Assembly (NCBI RefSeq): GCF_000801955.1
Contig: NZ_JSZO01000007.1
Coordinates: forward strand, 186,001 to 250,000
DNA from: Ralstonia sp. A12
GTDB taxonomy: Bacteria; Pseudomonadota; Gammaproteobacteria; Burkholderiales; Burkholderiaceae
Reading direction: 5' to 3'
Length of the DNA stretch: 64,000 bases
Shown in pieces: positions 22,917-29,628 of the stretch (the stretch's first letter is position 1; every line of letters starts with the position of its first letter). The translations under genes and the position numbers were made by a program. Below the pieces are notes generated by a model that was not told the origin of the DNA, made no database searches, and saw only the letters and a program-made list of their open reading frames with translations.

Positions 22917-22981
22917 ATGCGGCCAAATGGCGCCGCGCCTGCTTGCGCGAGGCATTGCAGGCAATGTTTTGAATGAAATCT

Positions 22982-23038
22982 CTATTTACTTCATACTCTG
23001 TGCAGACCATAGTGGCACGCATAACGACAAGTAAATAG
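22982..23038. repeat. Inverted repeat CTATTTACTT ... AAGTAAATAG
   Basis: Perfect 10-bp arms (22982-22991 and 23029-23038) separated by 37 bp, just upstream of the candidate small ORF at 23067. Confidence 0.5.
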
Positions 23039-23066
23039 CCAGTAGCGTACCCTTCGGAGACACAGG

Positions 23067-23171
23067 ATGTTACGCATTCAAAACGGGCCTTTCCAGCATT
23101 CCGCTTCTGCGCGTGCCCACGCGCGTCACCGCCATCGCCATCATCGCAGCGAGCCGGGTTTCCCGCGTTAG
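23067..23171 (+). CDS. Candidate small His/Arg-rich ORF (34 residues)
   Basis: Begins MLRIQNGPFQHSASARAH and continues with a His/Arg alternation (RHRHRHHR) before ending at TAG. GGAGA lies 6 nt before the ATG, a good spacing. There is no known family. It could be a small metal- or nucleic-acid-binding peptide, a leader peptide for the lipoprotein operon downstream, or chance: alternating His/Arg can arise from repeated CGCCAT-like codons. Recorded because of the start signal and unusual composition. Confidence 0.3.
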   Translation: MLRIQNGPFQHSASARAHARHRHRHHRSEPGFPR

Positions 23172-23394
23172 CTGCAACACCCCGACTGGTTTTGACATCG
23201 GCACCCAACCGATTAGCGCGTTACGCGAGTTAACGCACGCGACAAAACACGTCCGTCGTTTCTATTGATTTGCAGGATTGACTTGCCGCCATGGCAGGTC
23301 GTGCGCTGTCGGCCGTCGTACGCCGACAGGCGGGGGTATTGGCCGGCATTTTCCGGCAAAAACACAACAAGTTTCAGAACGTGAGGAGACAACC

Positions 23395-24993
23395 ATGGGT
23401 AGTCGACGTCATCTTTTTGTTGTCATGGCAACCAGTTGCATAGTCGCGATGCCGTTCATCGGCGGATGCGGCGGTGCAGACGATCCGGGCTCGTCAAACG
23501 TTGCGCAGTGCTCGGGTAGCTCTTGTCCGCCGAGCGGGCTAAACACGACGCCAACCACGCCGACGAGCCTGTGCCCGGCCGCGCTGGACTACACGACTAC
23601 CTACACCGGTGGCTCGGGTAGCGGCGAATACATCAAGGTCAAGTTTGATACGAGCAAGAACACGTATCAGATGCAGTTCGTCGAATCGTCGGTGCCGACC
23701 TCGGCAGGGCAGGTGAACAACACGCGCAAGGGGCTGACCATCAACGGCAACTTCGTGCACCCGACCAACCTGCCGACGCCCGAGCAGAACCGCTGCGCCT
23801 TCGTGCTGCAGTCGGGCAAGACGGCGGACAACAGCTACGCGATCACCGTCAACCCGCAAGACCCGCCGACGCTGTTCGTTGGACAGGGCATTGTGGGCGG
23901 CGGCATTCCGGGCGCGACGATCCAGTTCAATGGCATCACTGTGGCTCCGGGTTTCCCTCCCATTGGCGCGGTGCCTTCGCGCACGTTCGATTTCTATCCG
24001 TTCCTGGGCTTCTCGCAAACGGTGACGGACTTCACGCAGGTGGCTGGACACTACAACGAAGTCGGCGTACACGTGACGCCCACGGGCTCGGCCAACCAGA
24101 CCACGGGACCGCAAGGCTGGGAACCCGATGCCGTCAACTGGACGCAGACGTTGAATGCAAACGGCACGTGCACGGCTGAGGGCATCGACTACTCGTGCCG
24201 TACGACCGGCACGCCGTGGACGCTGCGTCAGAACACCGATGGTTCGCAGGACAACGTGTTTGTCAGCAATCCAGTGGCTGCCAATGCGCCGTATGCGTAC
24301 GTCGGCCAGGTCACGCCGCTGATCATCCTGGCGCCGAGCCAGGCCAAGGGGATCCTGATTGCCGGCAAGCTCAACGGGCAAGTGGTGCCGGTGGTGATCC
24401 GCGTCGGCTATTCGCACAGCGATCCGGCCAACTTGCTGGCGTCCGTGGGCGATGACCAGATCGGCATCTCGATCCTGACACCCGTGACGACGATTCCCAC
24501 CAATGCGCTGGCTGGCGGCTATATCGGTGCGACCAGCGCGTCGGCGTGCGGGCTGGTGACCTCCAACGGTGCGACTACCAACATCGGTGGCTACAACGGC
24601 ATCAACAGCAACATTCCCCACCCGGAGCTTTCCGGCAGCTATACCGGCGGCATCTACCACGCGTGGGCGGGCAATTGCAGTGACGGCACCGCTGTCTCCA
24701 CGCTGGCCGCCAACTACACGTCAACGTTGTTCCAGAACGGCACCGCAGCCTTCATCAACCCGTTCAACTCGCGTGTGACGGCGCAGTTCTCGCTCGACTA
24801 CACGCAAGCCTCGCCGGGCAAGTTGCTCGTTACCGCGCAGAACGACTTCAACGCGCAGGGTGCCAGCGGCAACGTCGCGCTGTTCAAGGCGGGCGACAAG
24901 GGTGTCGCGGTCAAGGTGGGCAATGTGTACGCAATGCTCATGAACAACAACAAGTACAACCCGTTCTTCACGGTCGGCGCGTTCGTCCAGTGA
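23395..24993 (+). CDS. Putative lipoprotein A, paralogue of the next gene
   Basis: Unknown function; 532 residues, exported. A signal peptide ends in a lipobox (FIGGC, Cys 25), predicting lipid attachment. The mature part starts with a short Ser/Thr/Pro-rich linker. Blocks shared with the downstream paralogue are LCPAALDYTTTYTGGSGSGE near 60-80, GQGIVGGGIPGATIQFNGI, and the C-terminal NPFFTVGAFVQ. The alternating hydrophobic, Gly/Asn-rich sequence suggests a beta-rich fold. It resembles Burkholderiales-restricted lipoproteins of unknown function (possibly the DUF2957 type; not certain). Strong AGGAGA ribosome binding site before 23395. First gene of a same-strand envelope cluster. Confidence 0.8.
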   Translation: MGSRRHLFVVMATSCIVAMPFIGGCGGADDPGSSNVAQCSGSSCPPSGLNTTPTTPTSLCPAALDYTTTYTGGSGSGEYIKVKFDTSKNTYQMQFVESSVPTSAGQVNNTRKGLTINGNFVHPTNLPTPEQNRCAFVLQSGKTADNSYAITVNPQDPPTLFVGQGIVGGGIPGATIQFNGITVAPGFPPIGAVPSRTFDFYPFLGFSQTVTDFTQVAGHYNEVGVHVTPTGSANQTTGPQGWEPDAVNWTQTLNANGTCTAEGIDYSCRTTGTPWTLRQNTDGSQDNVFVSNPVAANAPYAYVGQVTPLIILAPSQAKGILIAGKLNGQVVPVVIRVGYSHSDPANLLASVGDDQIGISILTPVTTIPTNALAGGYIGATSASACGLVTSNGATTNIGGYNGINSNIPHPELSGSYTGGIYHAWAGNCSDGTAVSTLAANYTSTLFQNGTAAFINPFNSRVTAQFSLDYTQASPGKLLVTAQNDFNAQGASGNVALFKAGDKGVAVKVGNVYAMLMNNNKYNPFFTVGAFVQ

Positions 24994-25078
24994 GGCACGC
25001 AGCAACGAAACCACATGCGGCGGTGCGCACGAGGCGTGCGCGCCGCCGCAGCTGAACAACAACATGGAGGAGACGCAA

Positions 25079-26338
25079 ATGCAATGGCGTAAATGGCTGG
25101 TCGTGTTGGCGTGCGCACCGATGGTGACCGCGTGTGGTGGTGGTGGAGATGATCCGCCGGCCCCGGTGATCCAGCGCCTGTGTCCGCAGGCGATCGACTA
25201 CAACACCGTCTTCACGGGCGGCTCAGGTTCGGGCGAACTGGTGAAGGTACAGCTCGACACCACCAAGATGACGTATCAGATCACGTATCTGGCCTCGCCG
25301 ATTCCGGTGACGACGGGTACGGTGGGCCCCACGCGTGATACCGCACCGAACAACGTGCAGAGCGGCACCCTCTCGCAGGAAACGGCGCTGCCGACTGAGA
25401 AGCTCAACCAGTGCGCGTTCCGCCTGAACAACGCGAGCCTCGATGCAAGCCGGCCGGCGCGTTTCTTCCTGGGGCAAGGTGTGTTGGGTGGCACGATTCC
25501 TGGGGCGACGATCCAGTTCGACGGCATCGTCGGCGTGGGCAAGATTCCGCAGACCACGTTCCCGTACTACCCGTTCATCAGCTTCTCGAGCACCGAGACG
25601 GACCTGACCAAGATCGCGGGCAACTACAACCAGCTGGGCTACCACCAGGTGCCGTCGCAGAGCTTCTCGCAACAGGCAGTCGATGCGCGTTTCACCATCA
25701 ACGCGGACGGCACCTATACCGAGTGCGACAACCTGGGCGTGAAGAACGGCGGGGCCTGTCTGACCTCCAGCGCGACGGTCAACCAGAAGCTCACGCTACG
25801 CGCCGACTCGTCTGCCTTCACCACGCTGAATTACCAGCCGCAGGTGCCGGCCACGTTGTCGTCGCTCGACCCGAGCAAGGCGGGCAAGGGCGTGCTGATC
25901 GTGGGCAAGCTGTACAACCAGCTCGTGCCGATCTTCATTCGCGTGGGTGCGGCCAACTCGAATCTGACTGCCGGCCCGCCGGTGGCTGATGACGAGTCTG
26001 GTATCTCGTTCCTGGCGCCGGTGGTCAACGTCGCACTGGATTCGCAGAACGGCGAATACACCGGCGTGGACAGCACGTTCAACTACCGCGCCACCGCGCT
26101 GATGGGTGCTCAGGCCACGATGCTCGACCCGTTCAACGCGTCGCAGGTGGCGCTGACACGTCCGCTGAATCTGGACTTCACGCAAACGGTGCCCGGCGTG
26201 ATCCGCACCACGCAGACGAGCGCTCCGGCCGGCTCGGCTCCGACCGGCAAGCTGATCTTCACCGGCAAGACCTTCGGCTTCCTGGACATGAGCGATACGA
26301 AGAACCCGTACTTCACCGTGGGCGCCTTCGTGCAGTGA
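25079..26338 (+). CDS. Putative lipoprotein B, paralogue of the preceding gene
   Basis: Exported, 419 residues, function unknown. Lipobox VTAC at Cys 19, then a short GGGGDD linker. It repeats the upstream paralogue's blocks: LCPQAIDYNTVFTGGSGSGE, GQGVLGGTIPGATIQFDGI, PYYPFISFSSTETDLTKIAGNYNQ and the identical-style end NPYFTVGAFVQ. It is about 110 residues shorter than paralogue A. The ATG at 25079 is preceded by GGAGGAG; an in-frame ATG at 25064 lies on top of that site and is not the start. The 85-bp gap to paralogue A suggests an operon. The pair looks like a tandem duplication that has diverged. Confidence 0.8.
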   Translation: MQWRKWLVVLACAPMVTACGGGGDDPPAPVIQRLCPQAIDYNTVFTGGSGSGELVKVQLDTTKMTYQITYLASPIPVTTGTVGPTRDTAPNNVQSGTLSQETALPTEKLNQCAFRLNNASLDASRPARFFLGQGVLGGTIPGATIQFDGIVGVGKIPQTTFPYYPFISFSSTETDLTKIAGNYNQLGYHQVPSQSFSQQAVDARFTINADGTYTECDNLGVKNGGACLTSSATVNQKLTLRADSSAFTTLNYQPQVPATLSSLDPSKAGKGVLIVGKLYNQLVPIFIRVGAANSNLTAGPPVADDESGISFLAPVVNVALDSQNGEYTGVDSTFNYRATALMGAQATMLDPFNASQVALTRPLNLDFTQTVPGVIRTTQTSAPAGSAPTGKLIFTGKTFGFLDMSDTKNPYFTVGAFVQ

Positions 26339-26424
26339 CGTTTCCGGAATAACACGCCACGGGGCGCGGCTCGTATCACGCAGATGCGCGCCGCTCCCTG
26401 CTCAGAACAACAGGAGGAAGCATC

Positions 26425-27249
26425 ATGAAACAACTGACTGTCGCATTGGTGGTGGCCTGCGCATCCGCGGGTGCCATGGCGCAGCAGGCCGGTGACAACG
26501 TGGCAACGGTGGGCTGGTTCCACATCATGCCGCAGGACTCGAGCAACAACCTGACCACCAGCGTGATCAACGCGCCGATCAATGATCCGCTGCGCTTGCC
26601 CGGTAGCTTTACGTCGCCCAACAGCGGGCTGCGCGTGAGCAACGCCAACACGCTGGGTATCACGCTGACGCACTTCTTTACCGACAACATTGCGCTGACC
26701 ACCATCGCTGGCGTGCCGCCCGAATTCAAGCTGACGGGGCATGGCGTGATTCGTGCGCCCGGGCCGGCAGGCGCGCTCGGTCACGTCGATCTGGACGACC
26801 CGTCCAACCAGCCCGCTGTGCGCAAGGCACGTCAATGGAGCCCGGGGGTCATCCTGCAGTACTACTTCGGGCACGCGCAATCGAAGTTCCGCCCGTTCGT
26901 GGGCGCGGGTGTGGTCTACAGCTTCTTCACCAACATCGAGCTGAACCCGAACTTCGCGGCGGCGGTGAATCGGGAGCTGGGCAGCGTGCTGGCGGCAGGG
27001 GCCGGCAAGCCGGGGCCGACGTATGTGGAAGGCAAGTCGTCGGCGTCGTGGTCGGCGATCTTCAACCTGGGTGCGAGCTACGCCATCAACGATCGCTGGT
27101 CATTGACGGCCACGGTGTCGTACCTGCCGCTCAAGACAGAGGCGGCCACCGTCATCAAGGCGGCGGATGGCTCCACGCTGGCCACCACAAAAACCACGCT
27201 CAAGGCCAATCCGATCATCACGTTCGTTGGGGTGTCGTACAAGTTTTAG
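26425..27249 (+). CDS. OmpW-family outer membrane protein
   Basis: Eight-stranded outer-membrane barrel, 274 residues. A cleavable signal peptide ends AMA-QQ near residue 19. Family features: GWFHIMPQDSSNN at the start of the mature protein, THFFTDNIALTTIAG, the central LQYYFG and RPFVGAGVVYSFF strands, YAINDRWSLTATVSYLPLK, and a terminal aromatic (SYKF). OmpW and AlkL-type barrels form a lateral channel for small hydrophobic compounds. CAGGAGGA precedes the ATG. It follows the two lipoproteins within 90 bp and is likely cotranscribed, suggesting a shared role at the outer membrane. Confidence 0.92.
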   Translation: MKQLTVALVVACASAGAMAQQAGDNVATVGWFHIMPQDSSNNLTTSVINAPINDPLRLPGSFTSPNSGLRVSNANTLGITLTHFFTDNIALTTIAGVPPEFKLTGHGVIRAPGPAGALGHVDLDDPSNQPAVRKARQWSPGVILQYYFGHAQSKFRPFVGAGVVYSFFTNIELNPNFAAAVNRELGSVLAAGAGKPGPTYVEGKSSASWSAIFNLGASYAINDRWSLTATVSYLPLKTEAATVIKAADGSTLATTKTTLKANPIITFVGVSYKF

Positions 27250-27361
27250 CCGGGCGTCGGCTGTCTGCGCCTGGCTAATTGGCGCGGCGTGAACCGAGCG
27301 GGAACCGGTTTGCGCCGCATTCTTAAGACGGTTTCAACCGTCAGTTCTAGTGAGGCAATAA

Positions 27362-27856
27362 ATGAGCACACGTAAAGTCGTATCTCTTGCAGTTGCACTC
27401 GCACTTGCCACCGTAGCAGCCACACCCGCATTTGCCGTGACCGTAACGCGCGCTGACAACCAGCCGATGAACCCGAGCGGCGAGCCGTTCTCGGTCACCG
27501 GCGTGACCAACCTCTCAAAAGGATCGACCAACGCGCAGTGCCAAGCCACGTTCAACGGCACCATCACGTCCGCTGGCATCGTCAACATCACGTCGACGAC
27601 CTTCTCGGGCGGTACGCTATGCGGTTTCATCAGCGGCGTGACTCCGTGGACGGGGCAGGCCGATAGCACGACACAGCTGACGATCAACAATGCCGCCGTC
27701 AACGTGTTCCTGCTGGGAAGCTGCGGCCCGAGCGCGGTGAGGACGCTCTGGGACAACGACGCGTCTTCGTTGACGTTCTCCAACGCATCGATGGCACCGG
27801 ACTGTACGGTGGGCGGTACCGTCTACTCGTCGCCTAAGTTCAAGGTGGCGCCGTAA
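27362..27856 (+). CDS. Small secreted protein, PraA/PraB-like, copy 1
   Basis: Exported protein of 164 residues with a signal peptide (cleavage after AFA, residue 25). The mature part is Ser/Thr/Gly-rich with four Cys (in NAQCQ, TLCGF, GSCGPS, PDCTV), all conserved in the neighbouring copy, so two disulfides are likely. It resembles PraA/PraB-type secreted proteins of Pseudomonas, which help cells use alkanes and build surface layers; this is a recollection of sequence character rather than a search result. Followed by a strong terminator, then copy 2. There is no clear ribosome binding site (TGAGGCAATAA upstream is weak). Confidence 0.75.
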   Translation: MSTRKVVSLAVALALATVAATPAFAVTVTRADNQPMNPSGEPFSVTGVTNLSKGSTNAQCQATFNGTITSAGIVNITSTTFSGGTLCGFISGVTPWTGQADSTTQLTINNAAVNVFLLGSCGPSAVRTLWDNDASSLTFSNASMAPDCTVGGTVYSSPKFKVAP

Positions 27857-27910
27857 GCACGGTACCTGGTTGACCTGCGGATGCGCAGCCGCGGTTGATC
27901 AGCATGAGAC

Positions 27911-27938
27911 AAAGGCCCGGCATGTCGGGCCTTTTCCT
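27911..27938 (+). terminator. Terminator between the two secreted-protein genes
   Basis: AAAGGCCCG / CGGGCCTTTT hairpin with a short loop, followed by CCTTTT. Confidence 0.85.
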
Positions 27939-27965
27939 TTTCATTCTTCTCGATTTCTCAAGACC

Positions 27966-28472
27966 ATGAACAACATGCGAATGGTTGTAGCGACAGCGCT
28001 CGCGTTGAGTCTGTCGATGGTGGGTGCGGCGCCGGCTGCAGCGGTGACGGTGACCCGTGCGGATGGTATGCCCATGCTTCCGACGGGTGAGCCCTTCAGT
28101 GCATTGGGATCTGTTTCCTTCTACAAAGGCTCGGTTTCGATGCAGTGCTTTGCCACGATCGTTGGTACGGTGAGGTCAACCGGATTCGTTGAGATTACCG
28201 CGGCGAGGTATGACGGGGCGGGTCCGTGCTCCCTACTGAATGGCACGGCGAGCAACATGCAACCTTGGACGGGGCAGTTCGATAGTCCGGTTCAGGTGAG
28301 CATCAACAACATGGCTGTCTCGGTCATGCTGTTGGGCTCGTGTGGTCCAAACAAGGTGATCTGGTCATGGAACAACTCTTCGTCATCGATGACCTCCATG
28401 AGTGCGGTGCTATTCCCGGACTGCACCACCTGGGGGACGCTGCAGCTGTCGCCGAGGTTTGTCGTTCAGTAG
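27966..28472 (+). CDS. Small secreted protein, PraA/PraB-like, copy 2
   Basis: 168 residues, paralogue of the preceding gene: the same signal-peptide end (AAAVTVTRAD), the same GEPF block, all four Cys positions (MQCFA, GPCSLL, GSCGPN, PDCTTW) and the same C-terminal SPRFVVQ pattern. The start at 27966 lacks a visible Shine-Dalgarno sequence, and a strong terminator separates it from copy 1, so it may be poorly or separately expressed. The ATG at 27975 is an alternative. Function unknown; a tandem duplication is clear. Confidence 0.72.
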   Translation: MNNMRMVVATALALSLSMVGAAPAAAVTVTRADGMPMLPTGEPFSALGSVSFYKGSVSMQCFATIVGTVRSTGFVEITAARYDGAGPCSLLNGTASNMQPWTGQFDSPVQVSINNMAVSVMLLGSCGPNKVIWSWNNSSSSMTSMSAVLFPDCTTWGTLQLSPRFVVQ

Positions 28473-28599: not shown

Positions 28600-29628
28600 A
28601 TGCGTTTGCTCGCCGCGCCTGCTGTTCAACGGATTACGTGTGCCATCACGCTGGCCGTGTCCATCGGATTCGCCCACGCCCAGACCTCGGCGCCTGCTGC
28701 AACGTCAGCAGTACCTGCAACCACTGTCACGCAACAACGCGCTCAAGTGCCCGGCTACTACCGCATGGCCCTGGGCGATGACGTTGTCACCGCACTCTAT
28801 GACGGCTACGTCGATCTGCCGGCCAAGACGTTGGTGGGCATGAGCGCGCAATCGGTGCAGAGCCTGCTGGCGCGGATGTTCGTGTCGAACACGCCGGGTA
28901 TGCAGACGGCGGTGAATGGCTACCTGATCGATACGGGCAGCCAGCGCATCCTGGTCGATACGGGTTCAGGCACGTGCTTCGGCCCGACCATGGGCGGACT
29001 GGTCGGCAACGTGCGCGCATCGGGCTACCAGCCCGAGCAGATCGACGCCGTGCTGCTGACCCACCTCCACCCGGATCACGCATGCGGCCTGCTGACACCG
29101 CAAGGGCAACCGGCCTTCCCGAATGCGCAGGTGTATGTGGCCGCGCCGGAAGCCGACTTCTGGCTGAGTGAGGCGATCGCCGCCGCCAAGCCGAAAGACA
29201 TGCAGCCGTTCTTCAAGATGGCGCGGGATTCTGTGGCGCCGTATGTGACGGCTGGCAAGCTCAAACAGTTCAAACCGGGTGATGAGGTGGTGCCGGGCGT
29301 GCGCTCGGTGGCCGCCCACGGCCATACGCCGGGACACAGTGGTTACCTGTTTGCCTCCAAGGGGAAAAGCCTGCTCGTGTGGGGCGACATCGTGCACAGC
29401 CACGCCGTGCAGTTCCAGCACCCGGAAGTCGCCTTCGAATACGACGTCGACCAGAAGCAGGCCGTTGCCTCGCGCCGCAAGCTGTTTGCTGAAGCAGCGC
29501 AGGACAAGCTCTGGGTGGCCGGCGCGCATTTGCCGTTCCCGGGCCTGGGCCATGTGCGCAAAGATGGGAAGTCCTTTGCGTGGGTGCCCATTGAGTACGG
29601 CCCGTTGCGCACCGACCGCGCGGACTGA
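28600..29628 (+). CDS. Exported metallo-beta-lactamase-fold hydrolase
   Basis: Zinc hydrolase of the MBL superfamily, 342 residues, with an N-terminal signal peptide (to about AHAQ, residue 27), so probably periplasmic. The metal motif is THLHPDHACGL, with further ligands in AHGHTPGHSGY and WGDIVHSHAV. Lactonase-like (AHL-lactonase or organophosphate-hydrolase) relatives share this layout; substrate is not predictable. AAGGAG precedes the ATG at 28600; the open frame upstream is not coding. It ends 4 bp before the convergent binding-protein gene. Confidence 0.88.
   Translation: MRLLAAPAVQRITCAITLAVSIGFAHAQTSAPAATSAVPATTVTQQRAQVPGYYRMALGDDVVTALYDGYVDLPAKTLVGMSAQSVQSLLARMFVSNTPGMQTAVNGYLIDTGSQRILVDTGSGTCFGPTMGGLVGNVRASGYQPEQIDAVLLTHLHPDHACGLLTPQGQPAFPNAQVYVAAPEADFWLSEAIAAAKPKDMQPFFKMARDSVAPYVTAGKLKQFKPGDEVVPGVRSVAAHGHTPGHSGYLFASKGKSLLVWGDIVHSHAVQFQHPEVAFEYDVDQKQAVASRRKLFAEAAQDKLWVAGAHLPFPGLGHVRKDGKSFAWVPIEYGPLRTDRAD

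Follow-up and report, generated by a model that had tools for sequence, protein, structure and literature searches.

A conserved, partly catalogued outer-membrane gene set in Ralstonia and other Burkholderiaceae: DUF2957 lipoproteins, an OmpW-family barrel and an optional Pra-like protein

We describe here a row of genes for exported proteins in Ralstonia sp. A12, contained in a stretch of 64,000 nt (the window) that corresponds to positions 186,001-250,000 of contig NZ_JSZO01000007.1 (assembly GCF_000801955.1); all coordinates are those of the window. An original prediction, made from the sequence, had placed five consecutive exported proteins of one strand at 23395-28472, and the open reading frames (ORFs) confirm this: two lipoproteins, here named A and B, an OmpW-family barrel and two small secreted proteins, P1 and P2, are encoded in series, and a hydrolase of the metallo-beta-lactamase (MBL) fold follows, as listed below.

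23395..24993, + strand: A, DUF2957 lipoprotein of 532 amino acids (aa); Pfam PF11170, 358.7 bits against a cut-off of 25; in the A clade of the family tree, support 100/100
25079..26338, + strand: B, DUF2957 lipoprotein of 419 aa; PF11170, 505.9 bits against 25; model nearly all-beta
26425..27249, + strand: outer-membrane barrel of the OmpW/AlkL/OprG family, 274 aa; PF03922, 78.8 bits against a cut-off of 24
27362..27856, + strand: P1, small secreted Pra-like protein with four Cys, 164 aa; NCBIfam PraB, E value 2.4e-20, under the cut-off
27966..28472, + strand: P2, second Pra-like protein, 168 aa; 52% identity to P1, a local duplicate
28600..29628, + strand: exported MBL-fold hydrolase, like organophosphorus/methyl parathion hydrolases; a neighbour outside the conserved unit

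The A-B-OmpW(-P) gene set is a real, conserved and partly catalogued outer-membrane set. Judged from sequence comparison, the conserved unit is smaller than five genes plus the MBL-fold enzyme, being made of a B-OmpW core, usually joined by A, with the P proteins as accessories. Among 43 loci (L005-L017 and L056-L085, the best-scoring B-type matches of the genus and family searches, the source locus included), all 43 have an OmpW match 3' of B, on the same strand and within 1 kilobase (kb), at a distance of 29-253 base pairs (bp). In a set of 22 loci, the A-B-OmpW order is found in full in all 11 Cupriavidus loci, two of which (L043, L046) come from strains of Cupriavidus necator, in the one Trinickia locus and in seven of the 10 Ralstonia-type loci, the remaining three (L040, L054, L055) being interrupted by contig ends. 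Twenty further regions were chosen for diversity, at least one of which duplicates the 22-locus set (L115 gives the same matches as L047), and with A and rpoD matches below 60 bits excluded before counting, 11 of these possess A-B-OmpW, five possess B-OmpW without an adjacent A (L105, L109, L119, L120, and also L118, whose contig starts shortly before B), and four possess A alone. It is these counts that mark B-OmpW as the fixed core and A as a usual member able to stand alone. The surroundings of the solo A-type genes (L106, L108, L116, L117) differ, and no B, OmpW or P match is found in the region examined. The OmpW/AlkL type proposed for the barrel is likewise upheld, by the PF03922 score above and by comparison with solved structures (OmpW, E value 6.3e-14; AlkL, 2e-8; OprG, 8.5e-8). 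The barrel thus belongs to the same family as these proteins, differing in its length (274 aa versus 190-219 aa for the solved chains) and in the position of its gene directly after B in every one of the 43 loci.

A and B each start with a lipoprotein-type signal sequence and, as predicted, share the C-terminal FTVGAFVQ; both are members of DUF2957, each covering profile positions 1-344 of 344. Among named organisms, the closest relative of B is a protein of Ralstonia sp. ASV6 (96%). Three cysteines of B, Cys 19 (of the lipobox), Cys 35 and Cys 112, are invariant across 57 aligned DUF2957 rows, and a disulphide between Cys 35 and Cys 112 is predicted. In a midpoint-rooted tree of the 57 proteins, whose rows were labelled A or B beforehand by position and similarity, a single branch with support of 100/100 separates all 36 B rows from all 21 A rows, and with two such old clades we reject a recent tandem origin of the pair. 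Of the two tandem duplications originally proposed, therefore, the one of A and B falls, and the one of P1 and P2, with their 52% identity, stands. As Ralstonia, Cupriavidus, Trinickia and several other genera carry both forms, these are most likely older than the splits between the genera, and their maintenance side by side across genera suggests two distinct roles for A and B. DUF2957 is present in 14 of 16 Ralstonia genomes and in 182 of 398 Burkholderiaceae genomes (181 over the cut-off), representing eight of 25 genera, versus two of 274 genomes sampled across the class, namely the source genome and one weak match under the cut-off, and so the family seems to be all but restricted to Burkholderiaceae.

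By their profile matches, P1 and P2 are distantly related to PraA and PraB of Pseudomonas. Four cysteines are common to the two proteins and invariant across 14 aligned rows, P1 and P2 included. Against NCBIfam PraB (of the NF041561/NF041562 pair; cut-off 120 bits) P1 scores 72.8 bits and P2 56.4 bits, and against PraA (cut-off 150 bits) they score 70.5 and 49.8 bits, respectively; as the equivalog cut-offs are not reached, membership of PraA/PraB proper is rejected, although the proteins are homologous, and the original description of small PraA/PraB-like proteins is retained in this looser sense, with the four shared cysteines. P1 carries a signal for export and lacks a lipobox. Its model is eight-stranded and barrel-like, with a predicted local distance difference test score (pLDDT) of 86.4, and LolA/LolB and DUF1329 folds are among its Foldseek matches, weakly, with template modelling (TM) scores under 0.3.

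A profile made from 14 P sequences detects P in 81 of the 398 Burkholderiaceae genomes (four of 25 genera), and all 81 are among the 182 DUF2957-positive genomes, 101 of which have no P. The Fisher value for this co-occurrence, 1e-33, overstates the link, since P is limited to four genera and relatives are not independent. As to position, in 75 of the 81 genomes no more than 5 kb separates P from a DUF2957 gene, 58 of these genomes being recognized at a first pass, which used the best DUF2957 matches listed and thus undercounted, and 17 on a renewed search of the remaining 23. Of the six exceptions, four (G164, G182, G339, G354) possess a remote P-like gene only (E values 9e-17 to 9e-16), and in two (G138, G307) the contig bearing P has no DUF2957. 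P occurs in three arrangements. In Ralstonia and in the second cluster of genus g12 (L104, L121), the order is A-B-OmpW-P. In Trinickia (L049) and in all eight genomes of genus g25 that have P (G039, G057, G071, G088, G097, G113, G127, G134), it is A-P-B, with OmpW next in both loci examined (L049, L110). In three genomes (G337, G342, G386) P stands beside an A-type gene, so judged from match length, and B is on another replicon or contig, where OmpW lies beside it in G337 (L120) and G342 (L119). The A proteins linked to P (from the window, L104, L121, L049 and L110) form one subclade with the four solo A proteins, supported at 100/100. That P recurs with DUF2957 in more than one gene order is our strongest evidence for joint action of the two. 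Within the genus, Ralstonia genome G002 has no P and G014 has a broken one, and both retain DUF2957; P is thus dispensable, an accessory that, by these comparisons, is optional to the DUF2957 unit. P2, counted by the original prediction as part of the cluster, is not a conserved component: a whole second copy is limited, within the genus, to the source genome, the other second matches amounting to no more than a C-terminal fragment (G004) and parts of the single broken copy (G014), and a terminator-like site precedes P2. Elsewhere, two or three whole close copies of P are clustered in 14 of the 81 genomes, counted by eye (the source genome and G110, G192, G046, G144, G180, G251, G277, G297, G317, G322, G332, G347, G352), which suggests repeated amplification across genomes.

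Three further features bear on how the genes may be transcribed.

23067..23171, + strand: putative leader ORF of 34 codons, MLRIQNGPFQHSASARAHARHRHRHHRSEPGFPR, His/Arg-rich, 328 bp upstream of A
24994..25078, + strand: A-B spacer with a strong hairpin, -38 kcal/mol, z -3.29
27911..27934, + strand: terminator-like site in the P1/P2 spacer, 10-pair stem and T-rich tail; a consensus match only

The spacers measure 85 bp (A-B), 86 bp (B-OmpW) and 112 bp (OmpW-P1). The hairpin of the B-OmpW spacer (z -3.34), like that of the A-B spacer, is stronger than shuffled sequence, and for the P1-P2 spacer folding gives z -1.95; the A-B hairpin may serve in mRNA processing or stability. As a terminator scan returned eight sites of any quality versus 5.9 expected by chance, the site at 27911-27934 rests on its stem and position and not on the count. 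The predicted operon is A-B-OmpW-P1, with P2 as a separately expressed copy, probably outside it. All 14 DUF2957-positive Ralstonia genomes contain the block 22960-23180, upstream of A, as a single long match, with a few additional short matches to one part of it, and both negative genomes lack it. The frame of the leader ORF is open to its stop despite indels in the eight relatives compared, and the block contains inverted repeats, GTTTTGAATG...CATTCAAAAC enclosing CTATTTACTT...AAGTAAATAG; it is possibly an operator together with a regulatory leader peptide.

As to the surroundings, a tRNA-Met gene and a putative rpoD-type sigma factor gene (from reading of the ORFs) are found 5' of A, and a periplasmic binding protein gene is found on the opposite strand beyond the MBL-fold gene. 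The latter, most likely starting at 28600, does follow P2 as an exported enzyme, and its product has as its nearest solved relative the organophosphorus hydrolase 4le6 (E value 8.6e-131); an identity as an AidB acyl-homoserine lactone lactonase (NF047979) is rejected, at 212.1 bits versus a cut-off of 360. This gene is beside the unit in all eight Ralstonia-type loci that reach that far; the other 12 loci of the 22-locus set and the 20 further regions do not show it there, and we exclude it from the system on this ground and on that of its resemblance to organophosphorus/methyl parathion hydrolases. In Cupriavidus (L042-L048, L050-L053), a gene of one cluster precedes A in 11 of 11 loci (DUF1571 in L042, the member scanned), and beyond OmpW lies an oppositely oriented efflux-type operon, in which clustering recognizes a gene of about 1050 aa in 10 of the 11 loci and an outer-membrane-factor gene in nine; in L042, the outer-membrane factor and an HlyD-type protein were identified. 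In all, the conserved neighbourhood expected across Burkholderiaceae is borne out for B-OmpW and for P with DUF2957, the solo A genes and the units without P being the departures from it, and the original interpretation holds insofar as the lipoproteins, OmpW and a Pra-like protein belong together, less the MBL-fold enzyme and P2.

The model of B is nearly all-beta (pLDDT 89.2; predicted TM score 0.87), and Foldseek matches it to TbpB (E value 4e-4) and PmSLP (probability 0.98). Of the 50 rows listed for its fold, 36 (counted by eye, with many repeat entries of the same few proteins) are TbpB, LbpB, fHbp, HpuA, PmSLP or hemophilin. We take TbpB, LbpB, fHbp, HpuA and hemophilin to be grouped as Slam-dependent surface lipoproteins, PmSLP being so named by its title. 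The likeness to this group consists of a lipid anchor, beta-rich lobes and, as in B, a final strand at the C terminus, and the fold matches, a putative link to the barrel-and-handle fold of the group, are of middling Z and low TM. The difference is that B matches no PDB entry by sequence (best E value 0.3) and that Slam (PF04575) is found in none of the 16 Ralstonia genomes, in a search that matches 27 of the 274 class genomes (21 over the cut-off); with no such exporter found in the genus, membership of A and B among Slam-dependent lipoproteins is rejected.

Parts of the set are in print, and the term undescribed went too far. Pfam lists DUF2957 as a family, and BCAL0198 (OmpW), BCAL0199 and BCAL0200 (DUF2957 lipoproteins) of Burkholderia cenocepacia J2315, which have consecutive locus numbers, are antigen candidates in the part of the source available to us (PMC10303873). 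They are presented there as separate candidates, and their likeness to A-B-OmpW is judged from annotation. In the same strain, again from a source available in part, a 'toxic small RNA' (RF02278) is located between BCAL0197 and BCAL0198, adjoining the OmpW gene (PMC4603805); an Rfam scan finds no RNA of this type in the window between 18000 and 34000. An OmpW (gene unspecified) is given, in the available part of another paper, as more abundant in later isolates from one patient (PMC6127331). In one open-licence literature collection, a single paper (PMC10303873) names DUF2957, and we found no paper treating the A-B-OmpW(-P) genes as one system and none containing both 'praB' and 'OmpW' as whole words, and PF11170 was not among the matches listed for a literature search mixing two terms. 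The family and BCAL0198-BCAL0200 are thus already catalogued, and their treatment as one system was not found in the literature searched.

What the set does can be proposed only tentatively. The reading we favor, as possible if not yet probable, is of a surface module that captures and passes on hydrophobic or amphipathic molecules. The DUF2957 lipoproteins would be placed at the outer membrane beside OmpW, and the beta-barrel lobes of A and B would bind a hydrophobic or amphipathic small molecule; outside the cell, molecules of this kind may be picked up or dispersed by an exported Pra-like protein, and OmpW would give them a lateral route into the outer membrane. In such a module, A and B would act as binding subunits that cannot replace each other, with P as an optional extracellular helper. 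This reading gains from the constancy of B-OmpW in the 43 loci, the conservation of A-B-OmpW in Cupriavidus and Trinickia, the two old clades of A and B, the linkage of P to DUF2957 in three arrangements, the kinship of the barrel with AlkL and the efflux-type neighbor in Cupriavidus, and also from the Pseudomonas data. In the available part of the respective paper, an alkB-praA-praB-ompP1 cluster is up-regulated, overexpressed PraA and PraB are alkane-solubilizing, and a praA mutant grows more slowly on hexadecane; here too, Pra-type proteins are encoded next to an outer-membrane channel (PMC4542665), an analogy that suggests handling of hydrophobic compounds. The two systems differ in the channel (OmpP1 there, OmpW here), in the additional DUF2957 lipoproteins, and in that P1 and P2 score under the PraA/PraB cut-offs.

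A number of observations weigh against the capture of hydrophobic molecules at the surface. The low scores of P1 and P2 are one, and the 101 DUF2957-positive genomes without P and the two Ralstonia genomes lacking an intact P are others. No alkane hydroxylase and no OmpP1, which we take to be FadL-type, is among the seven proteins scanned at the locus (A, B, OmpW, P1, P2, the MBL-fold enzyme and the periplasmic binding protein), no genome-wide search for alkB having been made. The polarity of the strands of P1 is clear in three of eight, which does not settle whether it is a soluble barrel. Other OmpW proteins are, by the titles of the papers on them, cation channels or carnitine transporters. 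The exposure of A and B in the outer leaflet is putative and unproven, and the lack of Slam in Ralstonia belongs here as well.

The main rival is an adhesin or antigen module, in which A and B, at the surface, would attach to proteins or glycans, whether these belong to a host, to a biofilm matrix or to neighboring cells, with OmpW as a co-displayed adhesin. The predominance of TbpB, LbpB, fHbp, HpuA, PmSLP and hemophilin in the fold list of B speaks for it, as does the standing of BCAL0198-BCAL0200 as antigen candidates in what was available of that study (PMC10303873); as a whole we consider it somewhat unlikely. We rate as unlikely that A and B face the periplasm and serve in envelope maintenance, accepting or delivering lipids or assisting the assembly of OmpW, with no substrate from the environment. 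The missing Slam exporter is consistent with this reading, and so are the gene preceding A in Cupriavidus and the LolA/LolB and DUF1329 folds, weak as they are, in the list for P1; against it stand the export signal and missing lipobox of the linked P protein and the absence of both DUF2957 and P from two of the 16 Ralstonia genomes. To our knowledge, moreover, OmpW-family barrels elsewhere need no dedicated lipoproteins. We hold as doubtful a bolder proposal, of DUF2957 proteins as fHbp/TbpB-like, Slam-independent surface lipoproteins that dock as A/B pairs to an OmpW channel, with a secreted Pra-like barrel as a diffusible partner, together an unrecognized receptor-channel-carrier system of Burkholderiaceae. 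Least probable of all is the absence of a joint function, in which only B and OmpW would form a unit and all other members, A and P among them, would be passengers kept by descent: solo A, B-OmpW without A and units without P all occur, and the restriction of P to four of 25 genera means that its co-occurrences are not independent events, but P adjoins DUF2957 in three arrangements, including a long A-type gene with B elsewhere (G337, G342, G386), for which plain descent is not readily sufficient.

OmpW-family proteins are widespread, and their partners and roles are unsettled, in line with the varied roles named in paper titles. For one lineage of OmpW, B is a concrete candidate partner, found in 43 of 43 loci, and the link to Pra provides a second genetic context for a type of protein known mainly from growth of Pseudomonas on alkanes. 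If the set is an adhesin or antigen module, then the antigen candidates OmpW, BCAL0199 and BCAL0200 would form one functional unit. If it handles hydrophobic compounds, it would matter for the solvent tolerance of Ralstonia and Cupriavidus and for biodegradation by them.

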